NCBI GenBank assembly: GCA_028289525.1 | Contig: JANQPJ010000377.1 | Coordinates: forward strand, 1 to 45,964 | DNA from: Pirellulales bacterium | GTDB lineage: Bacteria; Planctomycetota; Planctomycetia; Pirellulales; JAGQOS01 | Direction: 5' to 3' | DNA: 45,964 bases | Shown: piece by piece, positions 10,183 to 37,883 of the stretch | Numbering within the stretch: position 1 is the stretch's first letter | How the letters are laid out: each line of letters begins with the position of its first letter | Notes under the pieces: generated by a model | The model's input: the letters and a program-made list of their open reading frames with translations, nothing else | The model's database searches: none | Told to the model about the DNA's origin: nothing | Made by a program: the position numbers and the translations under genes

Positions 10183-11151
10183 TTAGCCGATCAGGTCGCC
10201 TGTCGGCAAGAGATCGTCCGAGTAGCAGTCGACGCCGACCTCGCGGACGATGCCAAGAATACGCTCGACTTGGACGGTCGAGAGCGACTCTTTCCAAAAC
10301 CGCAGCGGATCTTTTCCCGACGCAACGTTCGAGCCTCCCTGGGTGGTCTTGCTCGGCACGCCCAACTGCTGGTAAGCGCGCGCCGGCACAGGCTCGTCGA
10401 GATACTCAAAAATCCGATCAACCTCTGCTTCCCGTTCAGTCACCAGACGCTCATACGAGGTGAGCAACAACCGGTCTCGAGCCTGAATCATGGGAACCAT
10501 CGTCTGCAGTGCCCACAGAAAGGCAAAGGCCTCTTCCCGATGGCGAATACGTGCGTAGATGTCCGGCAGATGAGGAAATTCTCGCTCAATCCCCGCCGGC
10601 AAAGGATGGGTACCGACATCGACCTGACGCCACGACTTGTGACGCATCTGGGAGAGCACCACCGCACACGGATGCCGGATCATCAGCACCGTTCGCATGG
10701 GAAAATGTTCAAGCATCCAGCCCAACATCAGATTGGCGCGACAGACCTTGATCAATAGCCCTCGAAATCTCAAATACTGTCCGATCACAAAATGCTCGTT
10801 GTCAACGACCGGAACTCCTAAGTCGCGTCCTGTCACCAGGCGTTCGATGTACGCCAACTTGAGCGGTTCATCGCGACCAGGAGGTACATAGGTATGCCAG
10901 TCAAAGCCGTGCCGCTCGCAGGCTGGATTGTGGGCACGATGCAGCGGCTCCCAAACCATCGGATAGCCAGGCAACGTCCCGACAATTTCGGCCAGCCACG
11001 TCGAACCGCCTCGCCCGCTGCTGGCAATCAGAATCGTGCGTCGCGGATCGTAGTTGGGCGACACCATCCGACTCCACATCCGCAGACCGGCATGCTTGAA
11101 TGGCCGCACTAAGCGACGTTTCGTTTTAGGGCTGAGAAGAGTTTTTGCCAC
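10183..11151 (-). CDS. Sulfotransferase family protein (PAPS-dependent)
   Basis: 322 residues from GTG 11151. The PAPS 5'-phosphosulfate loop is TILIASSGRGGSTWLAEIVG near the N-terminus, and the 3'-phosphate-binding region appears as TVLMIRHPCAVVLSQMR around the middle. LTSYERLVTEREAEVDRIFEYL is typical of the C-terminal half of carbohydrate sulfotransferases. It should move sulfate from PAPS to a hydroxyl of the polysaccharide. A second, divergent sulfotransferase lies at 38631-39467, so the polymer is probably sulfated at more than one position. An 86-bp repeat sits just upstream. Confidence 0.88.
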   Translation of the reverse strand: MAKTLLSPKTKRRLVRPFKHAGLRMWSRMVSPNYDPRRTILIASSGRGGSTWLAEIVGTLPGYPMVWEPLHRAHNPACERHGFDWHTYVPPGRDEPLKLAYIERLVTGRDLGVPVVDNEHFVIGQYLRFRGLLIKVCRANLMLGWMLEHFPMRTVLMIRHPCAVVLSQMRHKSWRQVDVGTHPLPAGIEREFPHLPDIYARIRHREEAFAFLWALQTMVPMIQARDRLLLTSYERLVTEREAEVDRIFEYLDEPVPARAYQQLGVPSKTTQGGSNVASGKDPLRFWKESLSTVQVERILGIVREVGVDCYSDDLLPTGDLIG

Positions 11152-14676: not shown

Positions 14677-14799
14677 CTAGAAACCTTGATAGACAAACGT
14701 TACCTTTTCATAGCTGGCAACAATCGAGATGGTGAGGACAAACGCCACCGCTAGGCCAACCAGAGCCTCGGTGACATATCGCAAGACTTTAATTCGCAT
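14677..14799 (-). CDS. Small single-pass membrane ORF, probably a truncated gene
   Basis: 40-codon ORF: it begins MRIKVLRYVTEALVGLAVAF and has one strongly hydrophobic segment (residues about 12-29). Its ATG overlaps the last codons of the DltD-like gene (CATGCGAATTAA), so it could be translated by coupling. It ends with TAG exactly where homology to the decayed GT-like copy begins. The sequence looks like the N-terminal signal anchor of a longer protein whose remainder was lost at the recombination junction; it might alternatively be a real micro-protein of the acyltransferase cassette. I do not recognise a family. Confidence 0.4.
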   Translation of the reverse strand: MRIKVLRYVTEALVGLAVAFVLTISIVASYEKVTFVYQGF

Positions 14800-16039
14800 G
14801 GCGTTTCCTTACATCAGCTAATTTTTTAAGGATACGATGGGCCATGAAATTGGGAAGCTGCCCCGTAGCATCGCCGACGTGCTCGCGGTCTGCCAAATGT
14901 GCGTAGTCTTCCTGGCCGTCTCGATTAATCAGAAATTTCAACTCATCGCGCCAAGTGTCCGGAAACTCACCTAGAACATCGATTCGATGATTGATGTCTA
15001 GCGATTTCACCCGATCTTCCAGATATTTTGCTCGCCGAGCAACAAGCTCAGAGATTCCAGGCTTGGCCAATTCCGTATCGGACAATGGCGTGATATATAG
15101 GAAAGCAGCGGCGTTCGAATGCGTGAGAGCTGTAATGATCGAATTCAGCATCAGCTCGTTGTAAGGCGCATTCGTCATCTTGGCTGCATCGCGATGAGAA
15201 GCATAGGAAATCATCCAAGCAGGCAAGTACTTTGTATATCTCTCATACACACCACTCAGGATCCAGTAGGTATATGCGTGTCTCGACGGGTAGTAGACAA
15301 GGCGATGCTCGTGCAACTTGCGTGCTAGCCGCCCTTTTGTCCGGTTGATTGCGAAGACTTGGTCGAGTTGGCCTGTCAGCAGTTCGTTGAATTCAGGTTG
15401 AATCTGTAGGGCAAGAAACGATGGTGTAAAAATCGCTCTAACCCAATCCCTCGGTTCCGAAACGAATAGCAGCGGCAAGAGGGTGCGTGGATAGCTCCAA
15501 TTGCTGGCGATCGCCGATGCTACCATATAGTTCCTCACCAGTGGAGTTCTCACATCAAAAGACCAATATGGGTGGATTGAAAGCACTACGAAATCAGCAT
15601 CGTTGGCTAGTGCATTGCGTACGCAATGTAGACTTTCAGTAATGCGTTGAGACTCCAGAACGTAACCAAGTATGTCAATGCGGCGCTGCTCGGGCGGCAT
15701 CGCGCGCCTTACTCGGAGTGGCAAGAGATCGAAATCACCTTTGTCGAGAGGTAGCACCTGTGCATCGGATCCAGAGATCCAGGCCAGACGCATATCGCCA
15801 GATGCCGCTGGGCCTGACCGAAAGACCATAGGGTCGCCAAATGGTAATTGCATGTCAAAGAATCTGTCTGCTCGCGTTGTCGTGGTAGCAGTCAGCTTTT
15901 GGCTGAGCCAGTGTTGCCCTATCACCATGAAAACTCCGACCCATACCGCTATGCGTAGCACGGAAACCCAGGTACAGGCGACCCCCACACCAGACTGAGT
16001 GAAAAGGGATTTCAATCTGTGATTGAGCTTATCCAGCAT
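14789..16039 (-). CDS. DltD/AlgJ-like SGNH-fold partner of MBOAT acyltransferase
   Basis: 416 residues with one N-terminal transmembrane segment (about 26-43, IAVWVGVFMVIGQHWL), so most of the protein should be periplasmic. A possible block I serine is in LAWISGSDAQVLPL; AFLYITPLSDTEL fits a central strand; and EDYAHLADREHVGDATGQLP near the C-terminus could supply the Asp/His of an SGNH triad. The ATG overlaps the MBOAT stop by 11 bases, the usual arrangement of MBOAT/SGNH pairs (DltB/DltD, AlgI/AlgJ). I assign it by fold-like pattern and context, as overall similarity to DltD is not obvious. Role: accepting the acyl group from the MBOAT channel and passing it to the glycan. Confidence 0.6.
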   Translation of the reverse strand: MLDKLNHRLKSLFTQSGVGVACTWVSVLRIAVWVGVFMVIGQHWLSQKLTATTTTRADRFFDMQLPFGDPMVFRSGPAASGDMRLAWISGSDAQVLPLDKGDFDLLPLRVRRAMPPEQRRIDILGYVLESQRITESLHCVRNALANDADFVVLSIHPYWSFDVRTPLVRNYMVASAIASNWSYPRTLLPLLFVSEPRDWVRAIFTPSFLALQIQPEFNELLTGQLDQVFAINRTKGRLARKLHEHRLVYYPSRHAYTYWILSGVYERYTKYLPAWMISYASHRDAAKMTNAPYNELMLNSIITALTHSNAAAFLYITPLSDTELAKPGISELVARRAKYLEDRVKSLDINHRIDVLGEFPDTWRDELKFLINRDGQEDYAHLADREHVGDATGQLPNFMAHRILKKLADVRKRHAN

Positions 16040-17261
16040 ATTCTAGTCCGATCAGTCTTCCATAGAACATGGGGATCGCTTCCATGGGGAGTGCAAGCAG
16101 AGGAAACGTCAGAGTAACAAATAGTTGTGTAGCGCAGGCCGCGGCGATGGTGTTGAACCGAGAAGGAGCCTTCCGCTTCGCGGCGGGATGGTCTTGCCAG
16201 AGCCGATTCGCATAGAGCGCTGTTGCGTGTATCAAACCAAACAACGCTAACGGAATGCTGATATCGTGCCAAAGTGCGATTGTCATCATGGTCGCGAAAA
16301 TAGCACGAGTCTGCGTGCGCTTTCGATAGCCCCCAACGGGAACAAAAACATTCCGCTGTGCCCATCGCGTCAGACTCATATGCCAGTTTGCCCAAAACAG
16401 TTGGATGTTTGAGCGAAAATAGGGGCGATTAAAATTGCCTTGGACTCTATAACCGAACAGCCGAGCTGCACCGACAGCGATGTCGGTGAATCCAGCAAAG
16501 TTAAGATAGAAATACCAAGTAAAGAGAATCAGATGAAGCCAGACCGTAAGCGTCGGGTTAACATCCGCATACGTAAAAATTTCGCGACTCGACCGTAGCG
16601 GAAATGCCAATACATAGACCTTGGTAAGGCCGATGAAGACCAGTCCAGCACCACTGACAAATTCATCTAGCCGGAAGCGACGAGCAGCGTTACCGGAGTC
16701 GCCCAATTCACGAAACTCGACAAGTGGCCCAACAATCTGAACCGGGGCGAAAAAGCCATAAGCCAGAATCCGACTGATCGTTTGACGTGGGATGGCATCC
16801 ACATAGGTTTGAATCAATAGGTCCAGAGCGCGAAATGTAGCAAAGGAAAGCCCGAGGGGAAGAAGATAGTCTTTAATCGAGTCAATCACTCCCAAAGGGC
16901 GACAGTAAGTCCAGAGAAAGTGATGAGTAAGCAAGTTGAAAAGATTGACAAAATGAACGGGCAATAGCTTCCATGCAACTAGGGGAACTAGCAGAGCGAC
17001 AAGTGACAAGACAAAGACAACTCTTGCTATTCGCGTTCCCCTGCACCAACAGGTGACTCGATGCAGCAAGGCTACGAACAACCAAAAAGGCACATAGAAA
17101 ACCAGTAATCGTGGCGTGATTACCCCCAGTGACACCATCCCGGTAATTGCCAATAGCGCCTGCTGCCACTTGCTGACGCGTATCGCATAATACAAGGGAA
17201 GCACCAGCGCTTGAATCACCAGCAAATTAACGAAAAAGCAAATGGTTGGAAAATCTAGCAT
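16029..17261 (-). CDS. MBOAT-family O-acyltransferase (DltB/AlgI-like)
   Basis: 410 residues from ATG 17261; a TTG at 17279 is an alternative. Around ten hydrophobic segments. MBOAT hallmarks are FYLNFAGFTDIAVGAARLFG, NFNRPYFRSNIQLFWANWHM-SLTRW and the second invariant histidine in TIALWHDISIPLALFGLIHA (usual form LWHG). It is an inner-membrane channel-type acyltransferase that takes an acyl group from a cytosolic thioester and transfers it across the membrane. DltB uses a carrier-protein-bound D-alanine; AlgI uses an acetyl donor. Here a carrier-protein gene lies immediately upstream, which favours a carrier-protein donor (inference). Confidence 0.9.
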   Translation of the reverse strand: MLDFPTICFFVNLLVIQALVLPLYYAIRVSKWQQALLAITGMVSLGVITPRLLVFYVPFWLFVALLHRVTCWCRGTRIARVVFVLSLVALLVPLVAWKLLPVHFVNLFNLLTHHFLWTYCRPLGVIDSIKDYLLPLGLSFATFRALDLLIQTYVDAIPRQTISRILAYGFFAPVQIVGPLVEFRELGDSGNAARRFRLDEFVSGAGLVFIGLTKVYVLAFPLRSSREIFTYADVNPTLTVWLHLILFTWYFYLNFAGFTDIAVGAARLFGYRVQGNFNRPYFRSNIQLFWANWHMSLTRWAQRNVFVPVGGYRKRTQTRAIFATMMTIALWHDISIPLALFGLIHATALYANRLWQDHPAAKRKAPSRFNTIAAACATQLFVTLTFPLLALPMEAIPMFYGRLIGLEYAG

Positions 17262-17429
17262 GGGCTGGAATGGCTGCAATCAGGTGCGGATCGAGATTGT
17301 TGTGCAGTCAGTGCTCTGCCACACTTGCGATCGAGTCTCGTCGCTAGGATACGAATTTCTTGACCCTCCTAGAGCCGCTGGTATTGCCTGAATGCCCAGC
17401 ACGAAAGAATTATCAAGCCTGCTCGTTTC

Positions 17430-17663
17430 CTAAATATCAATGCCCTTCCCTCGTATCACCTCTCTCGCGATGCCGATAGTTCGCATCTTCATGATTTCCG
17501 CAGTCGTCAATTCCACGGCAAAAGCTTCCTCAATAGCTGAAACGAGTTCCATCGCCTTGAGGCTGTCCCATTCGTCGGTGTCCTCGGGGCCAGTCGCGTC
17601 CGAAAGTGATTCGGGACTTACGCCTAAGACTTGGGCAAATAAGATAATCAGCTTGTCCTCCAT
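17430..17663 (-). CDS. Acyl carrier protein
   Basis: 77 residues from ATG 17663, chosen because AGGAGAG lies seven bases upstream; an in-frame ATG at 17708 overlaps the VOC stop (ATGA) and is possible. Predicted four-helix carrier protein with the phosphopantetheine site in DEWDSLKAMELVSAIEEAF (Ser of DSL). The acidic N-terminus (SDATGPEDTDEW) is typical. Neighbouring FkbH-type enzyme at 19081-20871 is the obvious loading enzyme, and the MBOAT downstream the obvious consumer. About 170 bases without a gene separate it from the MBOAT start. Confidence 0.92.
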   Translation of the reverse strand: MEDKLIILFAQVLGVSPESLSDATGPEDTDEWDSLKAMELVSAIEEAFAVELTTAEIMKMRTIGIAREVIRGKGIDI

Positions 17664-17704
17664 TAGTAACTCTCCTACAGCAATAGGTAACAGGACGGCA
17701 GAGA

Positions 17705-18121
17705 TCATTCCGTCTCTAGCAACTCAACAATTCCCCAGCCGAAAATCTTGTAAAAAGAAACGTGGCGACCGCCAAAGAGGATAGCCGGTTTGCGTTCACC
17801 AAGCGGAATACATCGCAACCCTAGTGAATCGATTTCTCGTAGCGTCTGAAATAGGTTCGGTGTTTCGTAGCAGGTATGATAAATCACTTCACTCGACCTT
17901 GCTAGAATTCCGTCCAATGGACCAGGACCGTCTTCTGCTGGCTGAACGAGTTCAATCGTTGGATAAGCCAATGAAGTACACAATCGAACATAAACGTTCT
18001 GCTGCGGGTCAAAAACACGCTCGCCGTTTGCATAGCCTAGCGCCTCCAACATTCGCAGCGCATGCTGGTCTTTCTTGACAGCAAGAGCCAGATGATGAAA
18101 TGCCAGGCCTAGAAGTGTCAT
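17705..18121 (-). CDS. VOC (glyoxalase/epimerase-like) family protein
   Basis: 138 residues. One VOC unit is seen: FHHLALAVKKDQHALRMLEA at the N-terminus with the first metal-type His pair, PTIELVQPAEDGPGP with the central Glu, then VIYHTCYETPN and GWGIVELLE with the closing Glu. This resembles methylmalonyl-CoA epimerase-type members that act on 2-substituted acyl thioesters. The start overlaps the stop of the methyltransferase (ATGA), so it is made with the carrier protein and FkbH. I infer a role on the carrier-bound acid (epimerisation or other C2 chemistry); no substrate is proven by the sequence. Confidence 0.8.
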   Translation of the reverse strand: MTLLGLAFHHLALAVKKDQHALRMLEALGYANGERVFDPQQNVYVRLCTSLAYPTIELVQPAEDGPGPLDGILARSSEVIYHTCYETPNLFQTLREIDSLGLRCIPLGERKPAILFGGRHVSFYKIFGWGIVELLETE

Positions 18122-19059
18122 TTTCGGCTGAGCGAGTACGCAACATTCACGGGGAGTCTGAGAGCAACACTTTCTTCAATACTTTTTCCTTCATACGGAC
18201 ATATACACCGCTCTCGGATAATCAGCCCCGCGTCGACGATCATGGCTTCCAGGTGTTCCACACTGTTAAACAAAAAAATATGATCGACGGCAGGCGCATT
18301 GATGCAAGTGGTGACATAGATGAATGCCTGGGCATCAGCAACGCGACGAATTTCTCGCAGGAAACGTCCAGGATCCTCAACATGTTCGAGAACCTCGCCC
18401 ATAACAACGGCACTGAAGAAATCATCCTTGAATTTGTTGTCCAGAAAGTCCTCTTGTCGCAAGACGCATTCCGTCTTGCCGCTGTAGTGCTCAATCAACT
18501 GACGGGTCAATTCGATGCTCGTTTCGCTAATATCAACCGCCATGAACTCGTTGTAGGCAGACTGTTGCATCGCTTTCATTAAGTAGTAACCGTGTCCAGG
18601 GCCGATTTCAAGGTAGCTACCGCCTGCGTCGTGAGGCAGCACTTCGTCGAAAAACCTTAGCATCTGCAAGTGATTGGGCCACAGGAATGAAGTGATCGCA
18701 AGGCCGTACATGTAGCGAGACATATAAGTCTCGTCGTGATAGACCCTGTCAGCTACCTGAGCAAATGAATGGTAACGGTAATTGCCATGTTTCTTAAAAT
18801 AGACCTGCTCCCGGAGCGTATCTCCCAAGATCACAAGATAACACTCGGCGAGGAATTCTATTGAGAGCCCTTGTGATACGCAGAAACTGAGATATTGCTC
18901 CAAGTGCTCCCTTTCGGAAGGGAGGTTGGCAGCCATCGCATTATCCATAAAGCGGCGATGAACTGGATTTGCTTCCAAAATAGATGACGTGAGGCGCCTG
19001 GTGAGGGGAAACACGTCAGAACAGTCAGCATCTACATTATGCATATCGTCCATAATCAT
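18118..19059 (-). CDS. Class I SAM-dependent methyltransferase
   Basis: About 313 residues from ATG 19059 (a TTG at 19068 is also in frame). A helical N-terminal domain of about 130 residues (SEREHLEQYLSFCVSQGLSI) precedes the Rossmann core: SYLEIGPGHGYYLMKAMQ (motif I), FMAVDISETSIELTRQLI (motif II) and SAVVMGEVLEHVEDPGRFLR (motif IV/post I). It lies between FkbH and VOC genes with ATGA overlap downstream. By analogy with the methoxymalonyl-ACP pathway, where a methyltransferase modifies carrier-bound glycerate, this enzyme could methylate the carrier-bound acid; alternatively it methylates a sugar. Confidence 0.85.
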   Translation of the reverse strand: MIMDDMHNVDADCSDVFPLTRRLTSSILEANPVHRRFMDNAMAANLPSEREHLEQYLSFCVSQGLSIEFLAECYLVILGDTLREQVYFKKHGNYRYHSFAQVADRVYHDETYMSRYMYGLAITSFLWPNHLQMLRFFDEVLPHDAGGSYLEIGPGHGYYLMKAMQQSAYNEFMAVDISETSIELTRQLIEHYSGKTECVLRQEDFLDNKFKDDFFSAVVMGEVLEHVEDPGRFLREIRRVADAQAFIYVTTCINAPAVDHIFLFNSVEHLEAMIVDAGLIIRERCICPYEGKSIEESVALRLPVNVAYSLSRK

Positions 19060-19080
19060 AGTTCTCAATCGGAGGTCCGT

Positions 19081-20871
19081 CTAGGAGCTTTCTTGCTCGG
19101 AGTTCGTTGTGATGTGGCCAGGACATTTTGGAAGCTTGGCTACCGAGGCTATCCAAAAATCGTCTTCTTGCTTGAACCCATGACTCTCGAAGAAGCCTGC
19201 TACCGGTTCATTTTTTAGTGTGCGTATAAATCGCCCCGTAATATGAGTAACTCCTCTGTCACCGATGCTGCTGGCTATTCCAGAAAGAAATGCTGTATCG
19301 AGCCCACGACCTAAGACTCGACAACTCATCAGCAAGGTATCCAGATAGGCAAGCTCGCCAGATATCTCGACGATCCCAACGCCAACCAGCCCATAGTCTC
19401 CAAAACGGTCTGCGGACTTCAAGAAGAACACCGCAAATTGGTCAGATTCCATGAGGGCGGCGATCTCATCTTCCGTGCGCCGGACAGTGGTCAAATTGAA
19501 TTGATTCGTCTTATTGACCAACTGCGTAATCCGTACAAGGTGCTGTGTTTCTGCAAGTGCAATGGTCGCTTTTAGAGCAAGACTTGCTAGGAACTCGGTC
19601 TCTGACATCAACTCATTTGCTGCCTGTTCACGTACAACGGCTGCCTTGTACATCTCAGTTCGATTTCGATCTTCTGATGTCACATTCATCCGGTCGAAAT
19701 GCCGGTTGACTTTCAGGAGACTTGGCAAGTGAGCCGGATCGTCGGGCACTCGTAGACAGACTACTTCTGGACACTGAGCTTTCATCTGCTCGATTTCAAA
19801 GTCGCTGTCATCAACAAAGACAAGCGAGTCCAACCCGATATTGAGCTCGGTGGCAATCTGCTGGATATTCTGTGGCTTGGGCTCCCAGTTGATTTTTGAA
19901 GCGGCAATATGCTCTCTGTTCAACACCATGCCATCGTGACGTTTGAACACCTCCCAGACATCTTCCTCGTTGTTCTTGCTGGCCAATGCGACTAAGACAC
20001 CTTGGCTCTTAAGCAGGAGAACTTGTTTCTGGAACGCCTGAAACGCTGCACCGGGAAAGGCGTTCCCCAGGTCAATTCCTTCCACGCCTGCTTCGCCAAT
20101 GATACCTCCCCACAGGGTGTTATCGCAGTCGAGGACGATACATTTCTTGGACGCGGTGGTCAGGGCTTGCAAAATACGGTCCAGTTCACTGCCGATCAAA
20201 AGCCAAAATCCCTCGGTATATGGCTGATGGTATAACGACCACTTGCGAGCATCTTGGCACGCAGAAAGCCCAAAGTCTCGCTGCAGCGCATCTAAGTCCA
20301 GAAGCGAAACTCGCTCTAACGATGCAACTTTGTCAATCCATGCACTAAGGATTGTTCGATGAAAGAGTCCGGCGCCTTGCGGATTAGTAAGACTGCGAAT
20401 ATCCACTTCAGTATTTTGCGGGAACGGCGGAATGGATATGACAACAAGTCCTGGAAAAGTAGACCGGAGCGTGCGAACAGCGGCTTCCAGGTCGTCCAAC
20501 TTCTGGAGCGCATTGGAAAGAGCGTTGCCGTCACCTTGCACGAAGGCGGACAACTCGTCCGCCATTAGGTCATCGATTCGCCAGAGGATGCAAATAGTAG
20601 ATAGGGATGGCGGATCCTCGGATACGCCAAATGCCTGCTCCCACCCGATGCACGTTTGGAATATCTGGTTGTAGGGCGCAACCGAAAAACAGGGGACATG
20701 CCCGGAACGCACAAGCGCGTTGCCAAGATAAGGAACCAAAGGCTCCACGGTCATTGATCCGGCAAGCCCCACCGACAGACTTGCGCGTTCTGCCACCGAG
20801 CTAGATCGCTGTTGATGCAATCTCCATTCCTGTTTTTCGGTCTGCACTCGTTTGGATAGATTTTCTTGCAT
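19081..20871 (-). CDS. FkbH-type HAD-IIIC phosphatase/glyceryl-ACP synthase
   Basis: 596 residues from ATG 20871 (MQENLSKRVQTEKQEW); the frame stays open further upstream but there overlaps the DUF115 gene. An N-terminal SGNH-like region of about 230 residues is followed by the HAD domain: CIVLDCDNTLWGGIIGEAGV (about 244-263, nucleophile Asp in DxDNT), LVALASKNNEEDVWEVF and LDSLVFVDDSDFEIEQMKA. The C-terminal 170 residues look like a GNAT fold (FGDYGLVGVGIVE, ESHGF). FkbH proteins dephosphorylate 1,3-bisphosphoglycerate and place D-glycerate on a carrier protein. With the ACP gene 3' in the same operon, glyceryl-S-ACP is the most likely product. Confidence 0.9.
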   Translation of the reverse strand: MQENLSKRVQTEKQEWRLHQQRSSSVAERASLSVGLAGSMTVEPLVPYLGNALVRSGHVPCFSVAPYNQIFQTCIGWEQAFGVSEDPPSLSTICILWRIDDLMADELSAFVQGDGNALSNALQKLDDLEAAVRTLRSTFPGLVVISIPPFPQNTEVDIRSLTNPQGAGLFHRTILSAWIDKVASLERVSLLDLDALQRDFGLSACQDARKWSLYHQPYTEGFWLLIGSELDRILQALTTASKKCIVLDCDNTLWGGIIGEAGVEGIDLGNAFPGAAFQAFQKQVLLLKSQGVLVALASKNNEEDVWEVFKRHDGMVLNREHIAASKINWEPKPQNIQQIATELNIGLDSLVFVDDSDFEIEQMKAQCPEVVCLRVPDDPAHLPSLLKVNRHFDRMNVTSEDRNRTEMYKAAVVREQAANELMSETEFLASLALKATIALAETQHLVRITQLVNKTNQFNLTTVRRTEDEIAALMESDQFAVFFLKSADRFGDYGLVGVGIVEISGELAYLDTLLMSCRVLGRGLDTAFLSGIASSIGDRGVTHITGRFIRTLKNEPVAGFFESHGFKQEDDFWIASVAKLPKCPGHITTNSEQESS

Positions 20872-20938: not shown

Positions 20939-21793
20939 TCAAAACAGGCTGTCAAAGTCGACGCGTTCGAATACTTCAAGCTTTCCGCCTGCGGTTGCGT
21001 TGTAAATCTTTCGCCCGTCTGCCTCGAATGCGACCTTAGCCATCTCATAGGCCCGCGCCATGCGGTTAACACGAGGGTCGTGCCAGCGATAGCCATCGCC
21101 AAAATAACGCGGATCGAAATGATTAACGTCGTCTGATCGCGAAATGATGACACTTCGTTCTTGCTCGTCTTGCTGAGACGGCTTATTGTAATGGTGGTCA
21201 AAGCCAAGCAAATAGACTTCCGACGCACCGAGATAGTAGGCAATCTGTAGATTCACATAGGTAACCGTTCCACCAGCGTACACTTTGGAAGCGCAGTTTG
21301 TTGAAAAAATCGGATGACAGTCTGAGTCATCTGGTGTATCTGCGGGACACTCAGGGTAATGTAGGATGTAATCCAGAAAAAGAGTATCCTCTGCTGGATG
21401 AATCCACTTCCTGTTAGCCTTGGGGAAGATCTTAAGCGGCCCCTTGAGTTGGTTAATTTCTGTTGCGCGGTCTTCGGCAACGAGTGTATCCTCCACCGTG
21501 TAATAGGTAGGACGGAATTTTTTGCTGTCGAAGAGAAGAAAAATCCCATTCGATGCGACCGAGATCTCCCCGCACAATTTATCTACGTCTGTTCCGCGAA
21601 GGCTGGGCCCATTTCCAATCACGAAAACACGTTTGCCTTTCGCGCTATTGTGCAAGCGAATGAGTTTGCGATCATTATGACTCAGGCCGATTCCACATTC
21701 TGCGGCACTGCGTCGCAGTTGATTCGCGATGTTCGTAATTGGATTCCACAGCGCCGACTTGAGACGCCTCACCTTATATGATTGACTTAGCAT
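20939..21793 (-). CDS. DUF115 / MptE-like domain protein
   Basis: 284 residues from ATG 21793 (MLSQSYKVRRLKSALW). The Rossmann-like start KRVFVIGNGPSLRGTDVDKL, VASNGIFLLFD and YYLGASEVYLLGFDHHYNKP are typical of the DUF115 family, related to archaeal 6-hydroxymethylpterin diphosphokinase MptE and to proteins that modify or transfer sugars in surface glycan and flagellin glycosylation loci. RPTYYTVEDTLVAEDRA and a Cys-containing FSTNCASKVYAGGTVTY follow. A direct biochemical role cannot be named; genomic placement suggests sugar or acid transfer onto the polysaccharide. The ATG overlaps a small upstream ORF (TGATG). Confidence 0.8.
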   Translation of the reverse strand: MLSQSYKVRRLKSALWNPITNIANQLRRSAAECGIGLSHNDRKLIRLHNSAKGKRVFVIGNGPSLRGTDVDKLCGEISVASNGIFLLFDSKKFRPTYYTVEDTLVAEDRATEINQLKGPLKIFPKANRKWIHPAEDTLFLDYILHYPECPADTPDDSDCHPIFSTNCASKVYAGGTVTYVNLQIAYYLGASEVYLLGFDHHYNKPSQQDEQERSVIISRSDDVNHFDPRYFGDGYRWHDPRVNRMARAYEMAKVAFEADGRKIYNATAGGKLEVFERVDFDSLF

Positions 21794-21909
21794 CAATACC
21801 CCCCAAGGTAATCATCGCCTTCCAGAAATAACGTTACAACAAAGTGTGCAGTAGAACTGGCGAGAACTTGCTCGACATGACCACCGCAAGAAAGGCTATT
21901 GCCTGACAT
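21793..21909 (-). CDS. Small ORF bridging two genes, possible micro-protein
   Basis: 38-codon ORF starting MSGNSLSCGGHVEQVLASST and ending FLEGDDYLGGY. It fills the gap between the GT-like gene (overlap 14 bases) and the DUF115 gene (TGATG stop/start overlap), an arrangement seen in coupled genes. The FLEGDD run resembles the metal-binding segment of GT2 enzymes such as FLEGDDYW at 28779-29867, so it may instead be a relic of a lost transferase. No good ribosome binding site. Weakly supported. Confidence 0.3.
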   Translation of the reverse strand: MSGNSLSCGGHVEQVLASSTAHFVVTLFLEGDDYLGGY

Positions 21910-34041: not shown

Positions 34042-34668
34042 TTACTTGGTTGGATCCTTCATGCCATCAGTGGTGCGCTTGTCAAACTCGCTTTCCAGCA
34101 TTTCGTATTGCATCAGATGATGCCACACGGAATTCTTTTGAAATGCCTCGCGTTCCTCTCCAACCAACCGAAAACCAAGCTTCTGAGCAACCTTGCCAGA
34201 GGACGGATTATCGCTGGCATGATAAACCATCAATTTATGAAAGCCCAGTCTCCTGAAGGCGAACGAAATCACAGCTCGAGAGCTTTCAGTCGCAAAGCCC
34301 TGCGACTGAGACTCGGGAGCAATCCAGTAGGCCAATTCGGCGCGATTCAAAACCCAAGAACGATGCCTCCGACGAACATCGATCAAGGAAACAATTCCGA
34401 TCGGTTGTTGGTTAACCAGAACGATCCAATGAAACCCCGTGCCTGCCTGATGCGCATCGTTCAAAGCTTGTACCATGCCTTGCGTTTCATCTTTGGAGCC
34501 GTGTGGTTCCCAGGCCAGGAACGTTGTGATCTCAGGATTCGTAACGTGTGGCCAGAGTCCATCAACATCAGCAACGGTTGGCGGACGTAAAGTTAATCGT
34601 TCCGTTTGGATTAAATATCCTTCGGGAAAGGTGATCTCAACTATTTTCGATGCATTCTCCGAACTCAT
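34042..34668 (-). CDS. GNAT-family N-acetyltransferase (RimJ/RimL-like)
   Basis: 208 residues. Begins with the classic LIQTERLTLRPPTVADVDGLW, followed by WIVLVNQQPIGIVSLID, the acetyl-CoA pyrophosphate loop AESQSQGFATE-type sequence (APESQSQGFATESSRAVISF) and HASDNPSSGKVAQKLGFRLVG. Transfers an acetyl group to an amine. The start overlaps the upstream gene (ATGA). Candidate substrates are the amino sugar from the DegT pathway or the amino group of a carrier-bound amino acid. Confidence 0.9.
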   Translation of the reverse strand: MSSENASKIVEITFPEGYLIQTERLTLRPPTVADVDGLWPHVTNPEITTFLAWEPHGSKDETQGMVQALNDAHQAGTGFHWIVLVNQQPIGIVSLIDVRRRHRSWVLNRAELAYWIAPESQSQGFATESSRAVISFAFRRLGFHKLMVYHASDNPSSGKVAQKLGFRLVGEEREAFQKNSVWHHLMQYEMLESEFDKRTTDGMKDPTK

Positions 34669-35348
34669 AGTTGATCGAATCCTGACATACGCAAAAACTG
34701 ATGACTATTCAATCGCCCAAAGCGTTCTGTCGGCGGAACGACAAACACTTGGCCAGCCTCAGCACATTTTGTGACCAGCGAGTTGGCCCCCAGGAAACAA
34801 TCGTCGCCAATCGTCACTCCATGGCCCACCGTGCTGTTGACGGCAAAAAAACAATTCTTACCCACCGATACAACCCCGGAAATGTTTGCACACGAAGTCA
34901 ACCAACAATTGTCTCCGATCGTTGAATGATGGCCAATCATTGCTCCTGACCAGACAAAGACGTTATCACCGAGCGTCACTCGCGGGTGAACCAACACTTG
35001 ATTCATGATGAAGCAGTTCTCACCATAAACACAATCGACCGGCAATCCCGACTGGGGGTGGACATACGACGGCAACGCATAGCCCAACTGGCGAGCCTCG
35101 GACACCTTTTTGGCCCGCAAGCCATTCAGATCTTGGTAGCCCAGAGCGACAAACATCTCAAAACGATCAGGCGGAAATCGTTCAACCACCTCGTCAAATG
35201 CCACCAACGGCAACCCTTCCCAGCTGTCGCCGGTTACATACTCCCGATCAACCGTGACGGCCACCACCTCGCGATCGCTGTGATGGCGAAAACACTCGAG
35301 CAACACCTCGGCGATCTTTCCCGTACCGAAGAGAACGACTGGCTTCAT
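34665..35348 (-). CDS. NeuD/PglD-like hexapeptide-repeat sugar acyltransferase
   Basis: 227 residues. N-terminal Rossmann-like domain (VVLFGTGKIAEVLLECFRHH) of about 90 residues, then left-handed beta-helix hexapeptide repeats (VTLGDNVFVWSG, IGDNCWLTSCANISG, VSVGKNCFFAVNS, VTIGDDCFLGANS). The HH pair in GAMIGHHSTIGD matches the catalytic His of PglD. PglD-type enzymes acetylate the 4-amino group of UDP-sugars; here a dTDP-amino-deoxyhexose is likelier given rfbAB. ATG overlaps the stop of the adenylation enzyme gene (ATGA). Confidence 0.88.
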   Translation of the reverse strand: MKPVVLFGTGKIAEVLLECFRHHSDREVVAVTVDREYVTGDSWEGLPLVAFDEVVERFPPDRFEMFVALGYQDLNGLRAKKVSEARQLGYALPSYVHPQSGLPVDCVYGENCFIMNQVLVHPRVTLGDNVFVWSGAMIGHHSTIGDNCWLTSCANISGVVSVGKNCFFAVNSTVGHGVTIGDDCFLGANSLVTKCAEAGQVFVVPPTERFGRLNSHQFLRMSGFDQL

Positions 35349-36901
35349 GATATGGAACGACTCTCCAGAGACTTTAGTAATGCAGGACGGTCAATCTTGC
35401 CGTTTTGATTCTTGGGCAGCGACTCCACTCGATTGATTCGTCTAGGCAGCATATAGTCAGGCAAAATCTTAGCGACTTCGCTACGCAGGTCACGCCCGTT
35501 GGAATCTCCTGCCATGGCCACAAACCCAACAATCTGACCCAGTCCTTCGCCTAGCTTCTGGTAGACTGCCGCTGCCTCGTCGACGCCGGTGAGAGAATTT
35601 AGGCCCGCCTCGACCTCCTCCAACTCAATGCGATAGCCCATGTGCTTGATCTGAAAATCGACACGCCCCCGGAAATGAAGCTCTCCCTGTGCATCCCGTT
35701 CGACAAGATCACCCGTTCGATAGCCAATGTCACGAAAACGACTGTGCGTGGGATTTTGGACAAAAGCAAGTGCGGTTCGCTCTGGATCGTGGTAATACCC
35801 TAGACCGACTTGAGGGCCTGTCAGAAACAATTCGCCAACATTCTTTGACGCCCCCTCGACCGGCAACAATTCATAGTCAAAGTTCGGAGCAAGCTGTCCT
35901 AACGGAGCCAAGTTTTGTTGATCCTCGAAATGCTGCTCACAGATGGTATTCGCAGAGCAGATACAAGTGCATTCTGTTGGCCCGTAGACGTTTTCGAGAT
36001 CAACCCGATCGGCATACAAGTCGAAAAGCTGGCGCAATTTGGGCTTCGGAAACCCTTCTCCGCCAAAAATGATTTTTCGAATATGTGTAAATTGCTCGCG
36101 TGTGAGCGTGCGTGCGGTAAGTAAGTATACCAACAAAGAAGGCACCGAAAACCAAATGGTGCATGCCGTATCCGTGACAATTTGCGTCAATCGTCGCGGG
36201 TCTCGGGTATCGGCGGCGGCCACTGGCACCAGTGAAGCGCCATTGAAGAGTGCGGCGTAAAAGTCGAAGACCGAATTGTCAAAATAAGGCGGGTTTACGT
36301 GCGTGAACCGATCGGCAACAGAAATCTGGAAACGCTCGGCAGCCCAGTCCACAAAATTCAACAAGCTGGCATGAGAAATTGCGGCCCCCTTGGGATAACC
36401 AGTCGAGCCGGAAGTGAACATAATGTAAGCAGGACTGCTGCCAGGAACGTTGCCCACGTGTGGCAAATCTTCCGGACAACTTGCAATGGCTGCCTGAATC
36501 CGCTCATCCAACACAATTGCCGAGCATGCCTTGGTATTAAGTGAATCGTTAAACTCCAGGTCGGCAATCGCGCTAACAATGAACTTGGGGCGACACATGT
36601 CGACAATCCGTTGCACTCGTCGCAGTGGGCTCTCTGGGTCGAGATTCGTGTAGATGATGCCCAGCTTCAAACAAGCGATCATCACGCTCAGACTTGCTGG
36701 CGACTTGTCACTAAAGAGCGCCACGACATCGCCAGGACCAAGCCCTTGATCCCGCAAGAAATGCGCTGTCTGGTTGACCAAGCCGTCTAGTTCGGCATAA
36801 GTTCGGGTCGTGCCATCTGGATAAAGCACCGCACAACGGTCGGCATGCTCGCCAACGATACGAGCGAATCGCTGGCCCAAATTGTGTTCGTAGAATCTCA
36901 T
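35345..36901 (-). CDS. Amino-acid-type adenylation enzyme (AMP-binding, DltA/NRPS A-domain-like)
   Basis: 518 residues from ATG 36901. Core motifs are in order: A3 IMFTSGSTGYPKGA (about 161-174), A4 PYFDNSVFDFY with the Asp that binds the alpha-amino group in amino-acid-activating domains, A5 ENVYGPTECTC, A7 YRTGDLV, A8 GRVDFQIKHMGYRIELEE, and A10 LPKNQNGKIDR with the catalytic Lys. It therefore probably activates an amino acid and loads it on the carrier protein encoded 0.8 kb upstream (37653-37883). It is a stand-alone A-domain with no C or TE domain, like DltA. Side-chain specificity was not derived. Confidence 0.88.
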   Translation of the reverse strand: MRFYEHNLGQRFARIVGEHADRCAVLYPDGTTRTYAELDGLVNQTAHFLRDQGLGPGDVVALFSDKSPASLSVMIACLKLGIIYTNLDPESPLRRVQRIVDMCRPKFIVSAIADLEFNDSLNTKACSAIVLDERIQAAIASCPEDLPHVGNVPGSSPAYIMFTSGSTGYPKGAAISHASLLNFVDWAAERFQISVADRFTHVNPPYFDNSVFDFYAALFNGASLVPVAAADTRDPRRLTQIVTDTACTIWFSVPSLLVYLLTARTLTREQFTHIRKIIFGGEGFPKPKLRQLFDLYADRVDLENVYGPTECTCICSANTICEQHFEDQQNLAPLGQLAPNFDYELLPVEGASKNVGELFLTGPQVGLGYYHDPERTALAFVQNPTHSRFRDIGYRTGDLVERDAQGELHFRGRVDFQIKHMGYRIELEEVEAGLNSLTGVDEAAAVYQKLGEGLGQIVGFVAMAGDSNGRDLRSEVAKILPDYMLPRRINRVESLPKNQNGKIDRPALLKSLESRSIS

Positions 36902-36909
36902 CACGAACC

Positions 36910-37656
36910 TTAAATCACCAATCCGCCATCGACTTCTAAGACGGTCCCATTGAGATAATCGTTTTCAATAATAGAGCAGACTGCTTGCAAAACATTTTCT
37001 GGCTGGCCAAGGCGTCGTAACGGAATACTCTGCTTAACGGAATCGACGATCGCCGAACTCAAGGCCGCATGCGTAGATGGAGTATCCAAAAAGCCAGGCG
37101 AAACCGCCACAAACCGCAATCCCAGCGGCCCTAGCTCCTTGGCCCAGGTCTTGGTCAAGGCAATCACGCCGGCTTTCGCGGCAGAGTACGCCGATTGCCC
37201 AGGATTGCCGCAGGCAGCAATCGAGCTAATGTTTACTACAACTCCTTTTCGCCGAAGTTGCAACATACGATCCACAACCTCGCGGGTCATATAGAATACG
37301 GAGTCGAGGTTGACCGCAATCACTCGACGCCATTGTTCGATCGGATGTAGTCGAGATTCGCGATTCAAAACATTGATTAGTGGGCTGCTATGAATGATGC
37401 CGGCATTATTCACCAGCACATCGAATCGAAATTCTTGTTCGGCTAGCTGCTCGATGGCCATCGCGACCTTCTCGGGGCTTGCGACGTCGCACGACACCCA
37501 GATCGTGTTGGTATTCGACGCACGAAGCTCGTCGTCCGGCGCTTCGATATCGAGCACCGCAACTCTGGCAGCATGCTGTGCAAAGTGCTCGACCAGCACA
37601 CGACCGATCCCCGATACACCACCAGTGATCAAGACGTGAGAATCGGAAATCTTCAT
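36910..37656 (-). CDS. Short-chain dehydrogenase/reductase (SDR)
   Basis: 248 residues from ATG 37656, overlapping the carrier protein's stop (ATGA). Cofactor loop VLITGGVSGIGRVLVEHFA, Asp after strand 2 (VAVLDIEAPDDE, NAD preference), LVNNAGIIHSSPLI, catalytic Ser in VVNISSIAACGN, YSAAKAGVIALTKTWAKEL (YxxxK) and C-terminal NGTVLEVDGGLVI. It resembles FabG-like reductases. Being between the adenylation enzyme and the carrier protein it could oxidise or reduce a carrier-bound acyl or aminoacyl group. Confidence 0.9.
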   Translation of the reverse strand: MKISDSHVLITGGVSGIGRVLVEHFAQHAARVAVLDIEAPDDELRASNTNTIWVSCDVASPEKVAMAIEQLAEQEFRFDVLVNNAGIIHSSPLINVLNRESRLHPIEQWRRVIAVNLDSVFYMTREVVDRMLQLRRKGVVVNISSIAACGNPGQSAYSAAKAGVIALTKTWAKELGPLGLRFVAVSPGFLDTPSTHAALSSAIVDSVKQSIPLRRLGQPENVLQAVCSIIENDYLNGTVLEVDGGLVI

Positions 37657-37883
37657 CCTAGGTCCGGCTTGTAGTTGCGAAGCGTGGCTCGAATGTCACC
37701 GATCTTCTTAAAGTCGGCGATTTCGTCACCCGAAAACTGCACCGCAAACGTCTCTTCTAAACGTGCAATCAGCAGCATATGCGACATCGAATCCCAGGTT
37801 GCGATATCGCGCAGCAGGAGCTCGTTGGAAACCTCGCTTGCGTTAATCGCAAACACATCAGCAATCAGTTCTTCAAATTTCAT
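37653..37883 (-). CDS. Acyl/peptidyl carrier protein
   Basis: 76 residues from ATG 37883 (MKFEELIADVFAINASEV); the open frame upstream overlaps the WbqC-like gene and is probably not used. Phosphopantetheine-attachment Ser in IATWDSMSHMLLIARLEETF, the DSM variant of the DSL motif. Helix II-III acidic residues are retained. It is the partner of the adenylation enzyme at 35345-36901 and distinct from the ACP at 17430-17663 (the two share only general carrier-protein features). Confidence 0.9.
   Translation of the reverse strand: MKFEELIADVFAINASEVSNELLLRDIATWDSMSHMLLIARLEETFAVQFSGDEIADFKKIGDIRATLRNYKPDLG

Follow-up and report, generated by a model that had tools for sequence, protein, structure and literature searches.

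The window analysed here is a contig of 45,964 nucleotides (JANQPJ010000377.1, positions 1 to 45,964) from the Pirellulales bacterium assembly GCA_028289525.1 (phylum Planctomycetota), and the subject of this work is a cassette of seven genes on its minus strand. In order of transcription, these genes encode an FkbH-type protein, a methyltransferase, a VOC protein, an acyl carrier protein (ACP), an MBOAT acyltransferase, an SGNH-like protein and a peptide of 40 amino acids (aa) that resembles the acyl shuttle DltX. The gaps between successive genes are 12, -4, 41, 168, -11 and -11 nt; the only wide one (168 nt) separates the ACP and MBOAT genes, and all remaining neighbours abut or overlap. 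The original prediction, made from the sequence alone, had described the first six genes as a Dlt-like acylation cassette with FkbH in place of DltA, whose members were contiguous, overlapping or nearly abutting. All six are present on the minus strand, and their spacing is as described for every pair except ACP and MBOAT; the gene list itself was incomplete, as a seventh overlapping gene, at 14677-14799, had been overlooked.

The FkbH-type HAD-IIIC protein (19081-20871, minus strand, 596 aa) scores 309 bits against TIGR01686, well above the family cut-off of 146.65, and carries the anticipated DxDNT motif at residue 248 together with an SCR motif at residue 516; its sole sequence relative in the PDB is 3slr. 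A longer frame given by the open reading frame (ORF) finder runs into the upstream MptE-like gene, and we therefore take 20871 as the sensible start. Members of the FkbH family load a glyceryl group from D-1,3-bisphosphoglycerate onto an ACP, and glyceryl loading is also the role proposed for this protein. The carrier (17430-17663, minus strand, 77 aa) matches the PP-binding family PF00550 (36.6 bits, 5.5e-9) and has its DSL site at residues 33-35, in agreement with the earlier reading. The two genes situated between them are candidate tailoring genes. One encodes an S-adenosylmethionine-dependent methyltransferase, a putative acyl-ACP O-methyltransferase (18118-19068, minus strand, 316 aa), matching Methyltransf_11 (58 bits, 1.7e-15) and containing a GPGHG motif; its homologues adjoin FkbH in loci L070, L074, L075 and L076, with GxGHG, EVLEH and N..A.DH invariant. 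The other encodes the VOC protein, a putative acyl-ACP epimerase (17705-18121, minus strand, 138 aa), matching Glyoxalase_4 (48 bits, 1.7e-12); its metal-site ligands H10, E57, H82 and E133 are invariant across five cassette VOC proteins, and it shows weak similarity, under the family cut-off, to methylmalonyl-CoA epimerase (TIGR03081). From these family relationships we infer epimerisation at C2 and O-methylation of the acyl group on the ACP. A MaoC-like protein and a short-chain dehydrogenase/reductase (SDR) replace the VOC and methyltransferase genes in several other cassettes, e.g., L074, where by analogy they would fit dehydration of the glyceryl group and its reduction to lactyl.

The MBOAT acyltransferase (16029-17261, minus strand, 410 aa) matches PF03062 (69 bits, 4.3e-19), and its His294 and His332 align with the catalytic histidines of DltB, so that both invariant histidines of the earlier description are in place. 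Its PDB matches are limited to the DltB structures 6bug and 8jem. Against the DltB equivalog model TIGR04091 it reaches 116.5 bits, with a cut-off of 375; assignment to DltB by this score was abandoned, since an ordinary MBOAT reaches 196.7 bits and the model does not discriminate under its cut-off. The protein ends in GLEYAG and carries no fused shuttle motif.

The absence of this motif from the MBOAT is matched by the seventh gene. In Dlt systems, the microprotein DltX bears the acyl-shuttle motif FXYXXF, the tyrosine of which ferries the acyl group from DltB to DltD; in the other MBOAT/SGNH pathways the motif is fused to the MBOAT, and neither a DltX-like peptide nor a carrier protein is present (PMC12148441). 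The 40-aa ORF of the window (14677-14799, minus strand; MRIKVLRYVTEALVGLAVAFVLTISIVASYEKVTFVYQGF) begins at 14799 within the last codons of the SGNH-like gene, with an AAGGA Shine-Dalgarno-like stretch upstream, and encodes a positively charged N-terminus, one hydrophobic transmembrane (TM) helix and FVYQGF as its exact C-terminus, in agreement with the DltX motif. It is the only such match among 575 small ORFs of the window. In 1.62 Mb of fetched sequence a relaxed form of the motif was found in 13 of 15,138 small ORFs; 11 of these 13 have a TM segment, and all 11 of the latter sit in MBOAT cassettes.

Comparison of FkbH-linked MBOATs reveals a strict rule: the shuttle is either fused or separate. 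In the long ones (at least 461 aa) the fused hexapeptide forms the very C-terminus of the protein; in the short ones (390-416 aa) it is absent, and every such locus encodes a separate peptide alongside, with the tails FVYQGF (window), FLYQGF (L075), FIYAGF (L076), VIYQKF (L082), FIYFAF (L087), FVYTGF (L088), IVYQNF (L104) and VLYQSF (L113). MBOATs of the same phylum without a nearby FkbH measure 455-508 aa (complete readings) and end in F[ILV]YFxF. Short MBOATs linked to an AMP-binding ligase are also accompanied by separate peptides, ending in FWYQEF (L034), FLYGVF (L035) and FTYLNL (L036). These three loci, all from the phylum of the window, are Dlt-like and combine AMP ligase, ACP, short MBOAT and shuttle, with an SGNH partner in L034 and L036. 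Locus L033 (5315-7635, plus strand) holds a short MBOAT, a shuttle ending in FIYIDF and an SGNH protein, and no ACP, AMP ligase or FkbH was detected in its 15 kb. A further rule, under which Phe would not follow the shuttle Tyr in FkbH-linked systems, was dropped, as many FkbH-linked MBOATs bear FIYFQF; because this tail occurs with and without FkbH linkage, it is no guide to the donor.

The protein encoded between MBOAT and shuttle (14789-16039, minus strand, 416 aa) is N-terminally anchored, and we propose it as the terminal transferase. No Pfam or NCBIfam family matches it. About 50 proteins that partner MBOATs in other loci were used to build five profiles; against three of these the protein outscores all 842 decoys, although its scores are small (6 to 10 bits), and in one alignment its G90, P318, D384 and H387 agree with near-invariant columns. 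AlphaFold gave a predicted local distance difference test score (pLDDT) of 36 from the single sequence, and of 49, with a predicted template modelling score of 0.47, from a 10-row alignment. A Foldseek search with the latter, low-confidence model returned SGNH enzymes first, Axe2 and DltD (7dxm, 3bma), at E of about 0.07-0.12, none of them significant. Taking profiles, columns and model together, we regard this protein as probably SGNH/DltD-like but divergent.

The original prediction would have fallen had the gene neighbourhood proved peculiar to this contig; it is conserved in relatives and well beyond. Within the phylum, an FkbH relative was found in 23 of 294 genomes, and FkbH adjoins an MBOAT in four loci, namely the window, L074, L075 and L076, with L075 holding all seven components in the order ACP-VOC-methyltransferase-FkbH-MBOAT-shuttle-SGNH. 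A broader scan, using an FkbH alignment as query against 84,980 species, each represented by a single genome, yielded the best 80 loci, which are those nearest to an FkbH itself situated in such a cassette and are thus a sample biased to this cassette type. An MBOAT lies at most 4.5 kb from FkbH in 48 of these 80, with an ACP also present in 46 of the 48, and the remaining 564 kb around the 80 FkbH loci contain a single MBOAT. The 48 loci span at least 11 phyla, and a polyketide synthase (PKS) ketosynthase was found within 6 kb in none of the 80. Since the FkbH-MBOAT neighbourhood recurs in so many phyla, the cassette is not a product of chance. The combination of methyltransferase, VOC and MBOAT likewise recurs, in Chitinophaga (L138, FkbH-methyltransferase-ACP-VOC-MBOAT-SGNH) and in Pseudodesulfovibrio (L145, FkbH-ACP-methyltransferase-VOC-MBOAT-SGNH), and pSymB of Sinorhizobium meliloti carries VOC-MBOAT(FLYQGF)-SGNH-ACP-FkbH. 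As a control, MBOATs of the phylum without FkbH have no ACP within 1.5 kb, barring two short MBOATs from AMP-ligase systems.

Some of these loci deserve a separate remark. L074 (4048-17715) holds two FkbH cassettes, in which methyltransferase-VOC-methyltransferase-FkbH-ACP faces methyltransferase-SDR-FkbH-ACP-MBOAT-SGNH, the latter preceded by the MaoC-like gene. In S. meliloti 1021 pSymB (L071, 9209-11091) the FkbH reading breaks into two frames near residue 361, by either a real frameshift or a sequencing error; it is intact in ml46 (L068). SMb20651, an ACP of unknown function in S. meliloti, was excluded as the cassette ACP because it pairs with the AMP ligase SMb20650.

The phylogeny of the MBOATs rules out a single FkbH-linked clade: the tree requires 8 changes, and FkbH was therefore joined to MBOATs several times. 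In the approximately unbiased test, neither a placement of the window MBOAT with the main separate-shuttle FkbH clade (p 0.23) nor one with the AMP-ligase-linked MBOATs (p 0.08) was rejected.

Considered together, these features lead us to read the cassette as a carrier-protein-dependent surface acylation system, Dlt-like and charged by FkbH, with a probability of roughly 0.78. FkbH would use D-1,3-bisphosphoglycerate to place a glyceryl group on the ACP, and the epimerase-like VOC protein and the methyltransferase would tailor it, for example to L-glyceryl and/or O-methyl-glyceryl. By analogy with DltB and DltX, the MBOAT would take the acyl group from the acyl-ACP in the cytoplasm and transfer it to the Tyr of FVYQGF on the separate shuttle peptide; transfer from ACP to shuttle Tyr is the most likely role of the MBOAT, and it finds support in the gene architecture. 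The SGNH protein, following the DltB/DltX/DltD scheme, would then take the acyl group from the shuttle and form an ester on the polysaccharide of this locus. The most likely acceptor is the product of the surrounding surface-polysaccharide locus (2272-42877, minus strand), which encodes glycosyltransferases, a Wzy_C protein, an ABC exporter, dTDP-sugar enzymes and a cytidylyltransferase.

Several observations weigh against this reading. The glyceryl identity of the acyl group we infer from what is known of the FkbH family. The FIYFQF tail is common to many FkbH-linked MBOATs and to MBOATs without FkbH, and the window MBOAT forms a long branch of unsure placement. The SGNH-like protein is very divergent and at the edge of detection: no close homologue was found by tblastn in 147 relatives, nor in plasmids, and Asp92 occupies the column of the nucleophilic Ser of its relatives, with Ser91 adjacent.

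Of the other explanations, the one with the best claim, though an improbable one, is that MBOAT and SGNH form an ordinary acetyl-CoA O-acetyltransferase while FkbH and ACP feed an unrelated acyltransferase of the locus, such as an N-acyltransferase. The shared tail just mentioned and the repeated origin of the FkbH linkage are in its favour, as are the GNAT and hexapeptide transferases encoded in the same locus; however, these two genes adjoin an ACP and an AMP ligase of their own, FkbH, ACP and MBOAT are direct neighbours in many phyla, and a separate shuttle alongside a carrier is how Dlt is arranged, acyl-CoA systems having neither (PMC12148441). That AMP-binding ligase (35345-36904) could in principle be the true DltA analogue, charging the cassette ACP and leaving FkbH some other task. 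The ligase and a second ACP do occur in the locus, and the phylum does include short MBOATs that are linked to an AMP ligase and accompanied by shuttle peptides, two of these MBOATs being the nearest tree neighbours of the window MBOAT. Yet this ligase, of which the locus has no other, lies about 15 kb away beside an ACP (37689-37874) and an SDR of its own, whereas FkbH stands inside the cassette, and AMP ligases are rare in FkbH loci with MBOATs; we consider this very improbable.

Slighter still is the chance that FkbH, VOC and methyltransferase make a methoxymalonyl-type extender unit for a polyketide or fatty-acid synthase encoded elsewhere. FkbH, ACP and O-methyltransferase are a classic combination of polyketide clusters, and FkbH loci of tetronate type were found on plasmids, but the window contig contains no ketosynthase, the ketosynthase matches of the same genome are ORFs of single-domain size (395-499 aa) on other contigs, the dehydrogenases of the methoxymalonyl route are missing from the cassette, and the best 80 FkbH loci are free of PKS ketosynthases, as given above.

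Acylation charged by FkbH, our preferred reading, shares with the teichoic acid D-alanylation system (DltX-DltA-DltB-DltC-DltD) a carrier protein, a short MBOAT without fused motif, a shuttle peptide on its own gene, with one TM helix and FXYXXF at its end, and an SGNH-type partner, which in the window is divergent and putative. It differs in that its loader is FkbH and not the adenylating DltA, in the additional VOC and methyltransferase genes, in its situation within a polysaccharide export locus and in an MBOAT far under the DltB equivalog cut-off. Because it has neither a DltA nor a DltB equivalog, the system is not a Dlt member, though it would work like Dlt. The Dlt-like layout with FkbH as loader is well supported by the PKS-free synteny and the shuttle gene; "in place of DltA" is accurate for function and position only, as the MBOAT is no DltB equivalog. 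The O-acetylation systems PatA/PatB and AlgI/AlgJ/AlgX, which use an acetyl-CoA donor and a fused C-terminal motif and have no carrier or microprotein (PMC12148441), share with the window the MBOAT and SGNH pair and an acyl-Tyr shuttle hexapeptide; in contrast to such acyl-CoA-type systems (PatAB, AlgIJ), the window has its motif on a separate gene and an ACP between the VOC and MBOAT genes. Polyketide and tetronate clusters in which FkbH loads glyceryl on an ACP share the discrete ACP and sometimes a methyltransferase, whereas the window lacks ketosynthase and tetronate enzymes and has an MBOAT as partner.

Chemical work has established that exopolysaccharides can carry glyceryl and lactyl groups (PMC4432689), and Campylobacter jejuni flagellin sugars carry a di-O-methylglyceric acid derivative (PMC3958885). 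Gellan gum is described, in the passage of PMC4432689 that cites Kuo et al. (1986), as bearing an L-glycerate substituent. Like the presumed product of the window, gellan is an exopolysaccharide, with an acyl group of the predicted kind, and the sphingomonad loci L141 and L158 hold FkbH-MBOAT cassettes; a tie between gellan L-glycerate and these cassettes is a lead only, drawn from likeness of chemistry and the sphingomonad loci.

Among open-access papers, none was found linking FkbH with MBOAT surface acylation, and the two literature matches for FkbH and MBOAT concern aeruginosins; subscription papers and patents were outside this search, and an earlier description is possible. The FkbH-MBOAT loci display a carrier and a DltX-like peptide in Gram-negative lineages and in at least 11 phyla, contrary to the statement in PMC12148441, with a loader that would draw on glycolysis rather than adenylate an amino acid. 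More broadly, and as a proposal that we regard as evenly poised, carrier-dependent MBOAT-shuttle-SGNH machines may constitute a widespread modular class beyond Gram-positive D-alanylation, with an interchangeable loader (FkbH or AMP ligase), an acyl group set by the tailoring genes (VOC and methyltransferase, or MaoC and SDR, the latter suiting lactyl) and a fused or separate shuttle Tyr. FkbH-charged members would then supply a missing origin for the glyceryl, methyl-glyceryl and lactyl groups that are esterified to surface polymers of bacteria, L-glycerate in gellan being one example, with VOC turning D- into L-glyceryl. If true, the origin of glyceryl-type, and perhaps lactyl-type, esters on bacterial polysaccharides would be explained, a gene signature for finding such polymers would be available, and loader and tailoring modules could be swapped for polysaccharide engineering.

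The polysaccharide locus also includes a sulfotransferase-like protein (10183-11151, minus strand), the MptE-like protein mentioned above (20939-21796, minus strand) and a second acyl module (34042-37874, minus strand), composed of ACP (37689-37874), SDR, AMP-binding ligase, hexapeptide transferase and GNAT, which probably N-acylates an amino sugar from another acyl-ACP. Elsewhere, FkbH modules occur beside other transferases. On a Paroceanicella plasmid (L070, 7988-16022), ACP-FkbH-methyltransferase-VOC adjoins an LpxL-like acyltransferase and mprF, and the same acyl-ACP module may therefore feed a lipid there and not a polysaccharide; on a Niveispirillum plasmid (L069, 8416-11458), FkbH-ACP is followed by a WcbI-type putative transferase, a possible further acceptor route for FkbH acyl groups.

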